A DNA stretch of 64,000 nt, from positions 1,659,966 through 1,723,965 of the forward strand of contig CP060531.1 of assembly GCA_016806715.1 (NCBI GenBank). The letters run 5' to 3'. Positions within the stretch are counted from its first letter, which is position 1. Each line of letters starts with the position of its first letter. Below, in pieces: positions 60,895 through 64,000 of this stretch. The position numbers and the translations under genes were made by a program. Under the pieces are notes generated by a model. The model ran no database searches. It saw nothing but the letters and a program-made list of their open reading frames with translations, and was not told the DNA's origin. The stretch comes from Thermoplasmatales archaeon (GTDB lineage: Archaea > Thermoplasmatota > Thermoplasmata > Thermoplasmatales > Thermoplasmataceae).

Positions 60895-61182
60895 TTAGTT
60901 CTTCTTTGTTTCTTTGGCAAGATCCAATGCCAAATTTTCATAAATCTTGCTGAGTTTCTTTATCGATCTCTTCACGGCGGCCTGTGGTTTCCCGGTTTTA
61001 ACTTTCACATATATCTGGGGATTATCTATAACGGGATGTTTGATATAGTAATGTGATTCAGACACCTGGTCATCATGGAGTATTTCCTCAACAATTGGCC
61101 TCAGAAGCGCATTATCATAGTTCAGCATCTCAAGTGTCATGGAATCTTTATCTTTTTCCATGACTCTGAATTTTGAATCCAT
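60895..61182 (-). CDS. rpo11: RNA polymerase subunit Rpo11 (RpoL)
   Basis: 95 residues of the RPB11/RPAC2/AC19 family, which dimerises with Rpo3. MTLEMLNYDNALLRPIVEEIL, then SESHYYIKHPVIDNPQIYVKVKTG match the L subunit alpha-like fold. The start ATG at 61182 is preceded by AT-rich DNA (TTATAAATG-like). It is co-directional with the tRNA methyltransferase downstream. Confidence 0.92.
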   Translation of the reverse strand: MDSKFRVMEKDKDSMTLEMLNYDNALLRPIVEEILHDDQVSESHYYIKHPVIDNPQIYVKVKTGKPQAAVKRSIKKLSKIYENLALDLAKETKKN

Positions 61183-61651
61183 AACCCTTCATTTATAAGG
61201 CATATATTATTCTTGTTTATTGTATACGACATAAGGCTCCGAACGTCGTGAATAAGTTTTTGTCAATTGAAGTGCAAAGGTCAGCGCAGCTGCTATTTTG
61301 CTTGAAGGTTCCGTGAGCATTTCCGGTTTAAGAACCTGTAAGACTGCAAACGTAACATGGCTTAGTCAGTGAAATGGTATCTTCTTTCACCATTCTATTT
61401 TCACGAGGTTTCATCGTGAATGGAAATTAGAATCTGGAATAGAGGAGAATGCACCGAACATATGACTGCAAAAACCGGGGTCACTCTGCTCAACTTATGA
61501 TGGGGTATCTGTTCAGCAACTCTAATTCTACTATACGAGGGGGTAGGGTACAATAAAGCTGTGGTGGTATCCGCTCCATAATTCCGCTCTGTCTGGGGGA
61601 CCTGAAAGTATAAATATAGGTAATATTTGTAGTCAGCGGGGAGGTGTCTAT
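61183..61651. other. intergenic region, nothing firm
   Basis: 469 nt between rpo11 and the micro-gene at 61652. A TATA-like AGTATAAATATAGG at about 61607-61620 and GGGGAGGTG at about 61638-61646 belong to the micro-gene. The rest contains short non-conserved frames, including a minus-strand frame 61401-61658 that has no supporting start signal and overlaps that promoter. No tRNA or repeat seen. Confidence 0.4.
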
Positions 61652-61723
61652 ATGTCATTTGTTACAAAAAGAAGGGACTTCGACGATGATGATGACGAAG
61701 ATGACTTCGACGATGATGATTAA
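61652..61723 (+). CDS. 23-residue acidic micro-protein
   Basis: The product starts MSFVTKRRDF and continues almost entirely with Asp and one Glu (12 Asp in the last 15 residues, with one Phe). The strong ribosome binding site GGGGAGGTG is 5 nt before the ATG, and a TATA element sits about 35 nt upstream of it. Such signals are good evidence that it is expressed. The sequence resembles acidic tails that mimic nucleic acid or bind basic proteins. I do not recognise the family. Confidence 0.6.
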   Translation: MSFVTKRRDFDDDDDEDDFDDDD

Positions 61724-61880: not shown

Positions 61881-64000
61881 ATGAATGGTTTGGAAACTTT
61901 CAGTTTACTTGATAGCAGGATAGTCGCCATGCTGGCGGAAAGGGGTATCGAAACTCCAACTATGCCGCAGGCAATGGCAATGCGGTCTATAATCGATGGC
62001 AAAGACGTCCTGCTATTATCGCCAACCGGAAGCGGCAAGACAGAGGCTGCCATCCTGCCGTTAATGCACATCTTATTGAGGGATAGCCCTCCGCCGGTAT
62101 CTGTGCTCTACATTACGCCACTAAGGGCACTTAATCGTGACATGCTGCAGCGGCTGATAGATTACGGAAGGAAGATAGGAATATCAGTGCAGGTAAGGCA
62201 CAGTGATATCGGACCTGCTGAGAAGAGGGAGATCCTGAAAAATCCGGCTGGAATACTCATAACGACGCCGGAGTCCCTGCAGATAATGCTCAACGGAAAG
62301 AATCTCAGAGAAATTATTAAAAACGTCAGGTACGTCGTCGCGGATGAACTTCACGAGCTTGCGCAGAATGAGAGGGGTTCGCAATTTTCACTGGCAATGG
62401 AAAGACTGAGGCATCTTACCGGAGGATTCCAGGCTGTTGGACTTTCGGCGACTGTCGGAAATGCAGAAGAACTCTCCCTGATGCTGAACGGTTCCGGCAA
62501 GGTAGAGATCATCAAGGCAGAAGTAGAGAAAAAGATGGATGCAACGGCAGTGATCCCTGAAAGTTCTGATAAATCAGCATCAGAAATAATGGGTTGTGAT
62601 GAACAGTATGCAGGGGCAATATTGTATGTATGGAATCTTATAGACAAAAACCCTGGAACCATTGTATTCGTGAATACGAGGAGCATAGCGGAGGATATAT
62701 CATTCAGGATTAGACTCATGATCAAGGACCCTCCCATAATGGTGCATCACGGCTCTCTTTCCAGAGATACGCGCGAGGCAGCCGAACGGGATTTTAAGAG
62801 CGGTAAGATAAAAGCGATAATCTCTACTTCATCACTTGAGCTTGGGATAGATATCGGGCTTGCAAAACTTGTGATACAGTTCAATTCCCCCAGGCAAATC
62901 AATAAGTTGCTCCAACGTGTAGGTAGGTCCGGGCACAGCCTTGAGAAGGTGTCAAGAGGCATAGTTGTCTGTACTGATGTGATAGAACTGGAGGAGGCCC
63001 TTGCAATCATCGACCAGGCGAATGCTGGCGTGCTGGAGGACATATTGATCATGAAAAATTCGCTGGCAACCATCGCAAACCAGATCATATCAGAAATACA
63101 CTTCTCCAAGGAATTAAGCGCTGATGCACTGTTTTCCCAGATCACGGCTGCATACCCATTTCGCACGCTCAGTCATGATGACTTTACCGCTCTCCTTGAA
63201 TTCCTTGCCAGAACGAGGAAAATATGGAATGATCCTCAGGTTATCCGCCGGAGAGCAGGTACACTTAGTTATTATCTCGAGAATATTTCCATGATACCGA
63301 GTGAAAAAAATTACAGGGTTATTGATATAGGTTCCAGGAAATTTATCGGAACCCTTGACGAACGATATGTTGTCAACGAGATAGAGCCCGGCAGCTACTT
63401 CGTGATCAAGGGTTCCACCTGGCGGACTGTCAGGATAGATGAGGACAGGATTTTTGTCGAGGCCTTCCCGACTGTGGCAATCGCCCCGAAATGGTCCGGT
63501 GAAGATATACCGGTACTACCGGACGTGATGGACAATATTTCAGAAATGCGTAAGAATAACCGAATTCCTGAAAATACAGACAGTTTTTCCAGGGCACTGA
63601 TGAAGGAATGGTATTCAGGGCAACTGGCATTGAAGGAACGAGTAATTATTGAGACAAAGAATGGCGAGGTGATCGTGCAGATAATATCGGGGACAAGAGC
63701 AAATTTTGCTCTTGCGGAAATTCTTACCAGTTTTATGGTATCAGTAACAGGGCAGAGCGTGGAGATGGACTATTCCCCATATCACATTTATATGAGATGC
63801 TCCCGCCAGATAATGGCTGCAGATGTGGAAAAAATTATTCGCGGCATAGATCCAGGAAGGTTAGAGGATTATATCAGGGCCGTGGCAAGGAGATCGCGTT
63901 TCTTCAACCTTGTATTCCTGTATGAAGCAAAAAAATTCGGTGTAATCAGCAAGGACGCAGATATTAGCAGAATCAGGTTTGAGAAGATTGTGGACTCCTA
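61881..64000 (+). CDS. Lhr-type superfamily 2 helicase, 3' end cut off by window
   Basis: A DNA/RNA helicase of the Lhr-core kind. Visible motifs: SPTGSGKTEAA (I), TPLRALNRD (Ia), TTPESLQ (Ib), VADELHEL (II, DELH), LSATVGN (III), VFVNTRSIAED (IV), STSSLELGIDIG (V) and LLQRVGRSGH (VI). After the RecA domains come the winged-helix and the start of the Lhr-specific beta-sheet domain. At least 706 codons are in the window. ATG 61881 is chosen; GTG 61863 is in frame and lies next to TTG, so the true start is uncertain. A 12-codon frame with its own ATG (61822-61860) precedes it in the leader. Confidence 0.92.
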   Translation, partial: MNGLETFSLLDSRIVAMLAERGIETPTMPQAMAMRSIIDGKDVLLLSPTGSGKTEAAILPLMHILLRDSPPPVSVLYITPLRALNRDMLQRLIDYGRKIGISVQVRHSDIGPAEKREILKNPAGILITTPESLQIMLNGKNLREIIKNVRYVVADELHELAQNERGSQFSLAMERLRHLTGGFQAVGLSATVGNAEELSLMLNGSGKVEIIKAEVEKKMDATAVIPESSDKSASEIMGCDEQYAGAILYVWNLIDKNPGTIVFVNTRSIAEDISFRIRLMIKDPPIMVHHGSLSRDTREAAERDFKSGKIKAIISTSSLELGIDIGLAKLVIQFNSPRQINKLLQRVGRSGHSLEKVSRGIVVCTDVIELEEALAIIDQANAGVLEDILIMKNSLATIANQIISEIHFSKELSADALFSQITAAYPFRTLSHDDFTALLEFLARTRKIWNDPQVIRRRAGTLSYYLENISMIPSEKNYRVIDIGSRKFIGTLDERYVVNEIEPGSYFVIKGSTWRTVRIDEDRIFVEAFPTVAIAPKWSGEDIPVLPDVMDNISEMRKNNRIPENTDSFSRALMKEWYSGQLALKERVIIETKNGEVIVQIISGTRANFALAEILTSFMVSVTGQSVEMDYSPYHIYMRCSRQIMAADVEKIIRGIDPGRLEDYIRAVARRSRFFNLVFLYEAKKFGVISKDADISRIRFEKIVDS

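Follow-up and report, generated by a model that had tools for sequence, protein, structure and literature searches.

Acidic C-terminal tips are found on ssDNA-binding proteins such as bacterial SSB and gp2.5 of phage T7. Tips of the SSB type form part of a larger protein and bind helicases or other DNA enzymes, and histone chaperones carry acidic-aromatic motifs. The eukaryotic DSS1/Sem1 is itself a very small acidic protein, of ~70 residues, that works in trans with nucleic-acid-binding proteins. Short genes of low complexity are easily missed by gene finders. MgtL regulates mgtA by intrinsic ribosome destabilisation (PMC11282234).

The window, i.e. the whole stretch of 64,000 nucleotides analysed here, originates from a Thermoplasmatales archaeon and harbors a microgene whose product is an Asp-rich peptide (Table 1). 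Every element named in the original prediction is found in the sequence: a TATA element, a Shine-Dalgarno (SD) sequence 5 nt before an ATG, an ORF of 23 codons, and a position between rpo11 (NF002241) and an Lhr helicase (PF19306, PF08494). The TATA box, TATAAATA, lies at 61609-61616, 43 nt upstream of the start codon; the spacer between GGGGAGGTG and the ATG at 61652 is TCTAT, and the TAA stop is at 61721-61723. From the TATA spacing, a leader of ~15 nt is predicted for the microgene. The tail had been described as nearly pure aspartate and, indeed, residues 9-23 are exclusively D, E or F; the last residue of this copy is an Asp.

Table 1. Features of the microgene and of its two neighbours in the window
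Feature	Coordinates	Strand	Description and evidence
rpoL/rpo11	60895..61182	-	NF002241, 147 bits; divergent neighbour of the microgene
Purine stretch + TATA box (GAAAG TATAAATA)	61604..61616	+	sequence; TATA-like box similarly spaced in relatives
Shine-Dalgarno GGGGAGGTG	61638..61646	+	sequence; GGAGGTG ranks first in conservation among the upstream blocks of 71 aligned relatives
Microprotein gene	61652..61723	+	23 codons + TAA; product MSFVTKRRDFDDDDDEDDFDDDD; sequence, conservation, reversed-profile control, codon test
lhr-type helicase gene	61881..63998	+	PF19306 WH_Lhr, PF08494, PF00270; extends past the window end

The lhr gene is a neighbour of the microgene, and a joint function of the two is only putative. 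As for rpo11, it adjoins the microgene in 4/4 genomes of the window's genus and not in loci L006-L011. Between rpo11 and the TATA box, ~420 nt (61183-61600) hold no obvious gene, a stretch longer than its counterpart in the sister locus L002. An imperfect hairpin located there (61380-61448) was dropped as a candidate: its z-score is -1.69 and 15/200 shuffles fold equally well.

The expression signals had been ranked among the strongest of the window. The anti-SD match of the microgene, 7 nt long, ties with the best among 58 non-overlapping window ORFs of at least 100 aa whose starts were allowed to float, and GGAGGTG occurs a single time in the window, both strands counted. On the other side, the GGAGGTG-spacer-RTG arrangement alone is within chance (1 observed vs 1.63 expected in the window), and TATAAATA is found 7 times. 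No T-run of at least 5 is present within 80 nt after the stop of the window copy. At the peptide level, no other acidic run of at least 7 residues exists in the six frames of the window and, at each of three thresholds, no second short ORF ends in an acidic tail. It is conservation, and not these single-sequence signals, that excludes a chance ORF.

Used alone, the 23-residue query matched 11/77 genomes of the window's family (f1), its own genome included; in the other ten, lhr follows the match immediately, and a TATA-like box and GGAGGT precede it. The search was widened with profiles (A3, A4, A5) rebuilt from the growing set, and more divergent members were obtained by reading the lhr upstream regions of unmatched genomes. 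Profile searches and position checks together place a relative of the microgene in 68/77 genomes of f1, representing all 19 genera, and in 15/15 genomes of a second family (f5), that is 83/92 for both. The tally starts from the 76 of 117 genomes matched by the true profile at E up to 10, subtracts G061, matched at a chance place, and adds G057-G061, G070, G073 and G074, identified by position. At the same threshold, a reversed-sequence profile of identical composition matches 1/117 genomes. The scores of G047 (E 2.3) and G048 (E 1.6) are weak, yet their copies are located before lhr; G001, G021, G024, G027, G055, G105, G106 and G111 are counted on the profile match alone, in frames of 23-36 aa, their context not having been fetched. 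The frame, the leader and the promoter recur across the family, close relatives included, and the prediction that the microprotein gene is real and its signals strong is therefore strongly supported.

In the profile search each positive genome has one microgene place, with two exceptions. Both places of G063 (C3, C6) sit ahead of their own lhr locus, and both places of G109 (C51, C8) precede a rimI-like ORF; these double places may stem from strain mixtures in the assemblies. Seven of the nine f1 genomes devoid of microgene also have no lhr match at 1e-100, and the absence in those seven may be due to assembly gaps. In the remaining two, G022 (99% complete) and G075, lhr is present and the microgene was not found, hence the microprotein is not strictly universal. 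Four other families of the same order (f2, f3, f4, f6) yielded 0/25 genomes by profile, a negative that applies to this sequence, since a more diverged peptide could escape detection. Likewise, no acidic short ORF appears in the 190 kb of sequence surrounding lhr and the cytidylyltransferase-like gene at 53 loci, comprising 24 of the 25 negative genomes (G091 left out) and six f5 lhr loci. A wider search (400 genomes of the class, E up to 1; 389 of the phylum, E up to 0.1) returned seven genomes outside the order, taken as chance as their matches are located in frames of 72-1181 aa. Among the 80 loci listed for named genomes, three were scanned (L015-L091 being excluded): L012 and L013 carry the microgene, and L014 has none in its 484 bases upstream of the match. 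Neither carrier is independent, as L012 is, judged by length, the same record as the contig of G043 and the microgene region of L013 is identical to that of G062.

A search for the same ORF before lhr in other Thermoplasmatales had been suggested as a check. It is directly upstream of lhr in 44 of the 68 positive f1 genomes; the other contexts indicate that proximity to lhr is dispensable. The remaining 24 divide into 15 in which it precedes a CoA-disulfide-reductase-like gene (once with an ORF between), 4 in which it is elsewhere (genus g7), and 5 whose context was not fetched. Nine genomes of g2, g4 and g13 with context read have the microgene before the reductase-like gene. In 5/5 genomes of g15 the order is microgene, CoA-disulfide-reductase-like gene, lhr; the nearest family of the g15 reductase-like copy is TIGR03385, at 410 bits, below its cut-off of 579. 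In g12 (G053) the order reads microgene, an ORF without NCBIfam match, reductase-like gene, lhr. These arrangements suggest that microgene, reductase, lhr was the ancestral order in f1. The relocated g7 copies precede a moaC-like ORF (G034), an exonuclease-like ORF (G036) or an ABC-transporter-like ORF (G035), names given by reading alone, without family search; in G037, the next ORF of at least 70 aa is convergent and faces the microgene.

In f5, the microgene precedes a GNAT ORF and a cytidylyltransferase-like ORF in 12/12 genomes with context fetched. One copy of each was tested, the others being judged by eye: the GNAT ORF reaches 77 bits with the rimI model (cut-off 86), and the second ORF 65 bits with a cytidylyltransferase domain. 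Out of six f5 genomes searched, G101, G104, G112 and G115 have lhr 15-17 kb downstream on the same strand. To note, at the f5 loci L203-L213 the rimI-like ORF could extend upstream, in a different frame, across the Asp codons of the microgene, and the rimI-like enzyme in f5 may thus be annotated with a false Met/Thr-rich N-terminus. With relatives also located before CoA-disulfide-reductase-like genes, rimI-like genes or elsewhere, a leader specific to lhr is rejected, and the case for an Lhr-specific cofactor by guilt of association is weakened.

The anatomy of the family was established from 72 distinct gene copies encoding 62 distinct proteins, with 71 aligned upstream regions. Twelve further loci, for which the start-plus-SD rule failed, were set apart and still counted as carriers; among them, G068 is cut by a contig end, and the SD of G034, G037 and G045 is weak, absent or oddly spaced. 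Upstream, GGAGGTG occupies -12 to -6 and is preceded by a purine patch and an A/T box at about -47 to -36. A T-run of at least 5 follows within 60 nt after the stop in 36/72 copies, and within the next 60 nt in 11/72. The peptides are 19-25 residues long where read, with a net charge of -7 to -15 and an Asp:Glu count of 684:91 over the 62 proteins. Their commonest form is M-x-x-F-I/V-K-R-R-D-Y-Asp run-x-Asp run-(F). The C-terminal residue is Phe in 34, Leu in 4 and Val in 1 of the 62; an inner aromatic residue (from residue 9 to the second last) is present in 43/62 and absent from 19/62, and the first 9 residues contain neither K nor R in 6/62.

The start codons of the 72 copies are ATG (41), TTG (19), GTG (6) and ACG (6). 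An apparent ACG start occupies the usual place after the SD at L120, L121, L124 and L215 (genomes G010, G011, G015 and G016 of genus g3), and these four copies have no in-frame ATG, GTG or TTG from the upstream stop to the ACG. On sequence grounds, the g3 starts point to non-AUG initiation or dose control. ACG is also seen at the aligned place in L205 (G103) and L101 (G046), and GCG in L114 (G045); in these three, an alternative in-frame GTG overlaps the SD.

Codon changes were counted in 34 nearest-neighbour comparisons within groups, using pairs of equal length and omitting the start codon: 122 are synonymous and 48 non-synonymous. The synonymous share is 72%, vs 19% under random mutation of the same sequences, with a maximum of 29% in 300 runs. 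As synonymous changes dominate, the amino acids are under purifying selection, which points to selection on the protein rather than on an RNA. Positions 61652-61723 are thus almost certainly, as far as sequence comparison can tell, a real protein-coding gene belonging to a conserved microprotein family.

The comparisons give good support to a free-standing, Asp-rich microprotein that would act in trans. Trans action is suggested by a position that is not tied to one downstream gene; this free position and the normally single copy favour a trans-acting peptide. Mimicry of nucleic acid and binding of metal or of a basic protein had been put forward as possible roles. Its most likely role, proposed tentatively and with a probability somewhat short of even, would be to bind a basic protein as an acidic ligand or to mimic nucleic acid towards it, because the Asp run, often with an aromatic residue and a terminal Phe, resembles the tips of ssDNA-binding proteins and the motifs of histone chaperones. 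The microprotein would be a two-block disordered peptide, with a short head that is hydrophobic and basic (typically M-x-x-F-I/V-K-R-R) and an Asp-rich tail of 12-15 residues in which an inner aromatic and a terminal Phe are both frequent. This tail would most likely dock on basic, nucleic-acid-binding surfaces of a partner protein and there compete with, or substitute for, DNA or RNA, in the way that the tips of ssDNA-binding proteins do within a larger protein. The partner could be Lhr, an SSB, or HTa, a chromatin protein. Some features fit this proposal less well: the basic head is missing in some members (6/62), the terminal Phe is not universal, and 19/62 have no inner aromatic. Moreover, HTa is found in 114/117 genomes, families lacking the microprotein included, so that co-occurrence is not diagnostic. 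The idea that Lhr of the negative families has an acidic tail of its own, replaced elsewhere by the microprotein, is unsupported; in L253-L282, no 14-residue window of the longest ORFs, some of which are truncated where the contig or locus stops, has more than 7 acidic residues. Use of TTG, GTG and, apparently in four g3 genomes, ACG as a start may tune the dose of the microprotein. Taken as a whole, the statement that a near-universal, free-standing acidic-tip microprotein of ~23 residues in two families works on a core DNA/RNA machine by mimicking nucleic acid in trans, with a non-AUG start in many species, is doubtful in our judgement.

Other explanations of the same gene were weighed against this acidic ligand. 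The peptide might be a cis-acting leader, translation of the Asp run destabilising or stalling the ribosome and thereby regulating the next gene (lhr or the reductase) in the way of MgtL. Acidic nascent stretches do destabilise ribosomes, an effect exploited by MgtL (PMC11282234); the place before lhr or a CoA-disulfide-reductase-like gene is common, and in g3 and g2 no more than tens of nt separate the microgene stop from the following start. However, the downstream gene varies between families and inside g7, and in G037, where the next ORF is convergent, nothing near is led. A T-run follows the stop within 60 nt in half of the copies, there is normally one copy per genome, and the acidic run is C-terminal, whereas MgtL has it at the start. 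A cis-acting leader accounts for the frequent proximity of lhr or the reductase but not for g7 or f5, and we regard it as improbable. An equally low probability is given to a chaperone or antagonist of HTa, whose DNA-binding face the Asp-aromatic tail would cap in the manner of the acidic-aromatic motifs found in histone chaperones. HTa is reported to be the histone analogue in T. acidophilum (PMC6877293). The positive families do have HTa/HU (PF00216), and 43/62 tails have an aromatic residue inside the acidic run; PF00216 is, however, equally frequent in families without the microprotein. Its copies are mostly one per genome in f1 and f5, and often two in f2 and f3.

A small cytosolic metal buffer, in which the Asp run would chelate Mg, Ca or Fe, is more unlikely still. 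The strong bias for Asp over Glu would suit it, and acidophiles inhabit metal-rich water, but buffering needs neither the conserved head nor the aromatic positions, and a 23-mer would probably have to be very abundant. Finally, the conserved element might not be a protein gene at all. It could be a product of chance, or it could encode a small RNA, perhaps of the C/D-box type in view of the likeness of GATGATGA to box C. Seven snoRNA/sRNA families do give Rfam matches, yet these are sub-threshold (E 1.3-6.8, 12-17 bits) and far below the gathering values of 38-80 bits. The dominance of synonymous changes, the retention of frame, SD and start, and the reversed-profile control make either option extremely improbable; a chance ORF in particular is rejected by the profile distribution, the unique acidic tail, the reversed-profile control and the codon test.

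Three members of the family gave no match in Pfam or NCBIfam, and one chance-level match (E 3.2) in PHROGs. No match was obtained among PDB sequences with one member (E up to 10) or with a 49-row profile (E up to 1), nor among phages with one member; homology therefore points to no partner. No description of the microgene was found in the literature at the level of titles and beginnings of abstracts, mostly outside subscription journals. A tail made mostly of Asp, with hardly any Glu, in a sequence kept by selection offers a clear and inexpensive test case for the abilities of an acidic tail that has no folded domain attached. If it is indeed a trans-acting nucleic-acid mimic, it would be, to our knowledge, among the smallest such regulators.

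Like the MgtL-type leaders (PMC11282234), the microgene is a very small ORF that encodes acidic residues and lies ahead of a larger gene. It differs in that the acidic motif of MgtL is at the start whereas the run is C-terminal here, and in that it is not fixed in cis before one regulated gene: lhr, CoA-disulfide-reductase-like and rimI-like genes and four g7 contexts were observed. DSS1/Sem1 is likewise very small and acidic, but with ~70 residues and a eukaryotic distribution it stands apart from an archaeal microprotein of 19-25 residues; no PDB or Pfam match speaks for homology, the microprotein being too short for a strong negative. In form, the microprotein resembles the tips of SSB and T7 gp2.5, which share the extended Asp-rich run and, often, the C-terminal Phe (34/62 members end in F). 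In contrast to these tips, the microprotein is free-standing, its terminal Phe is not universal, and it has no OB-fold ssDNA-binding domain, being 19-25 residues long and without a Pfam match for three members. As far as searched, the microprotein is thus a new family and, in kind, a variant of the known acidic tip, without its body.
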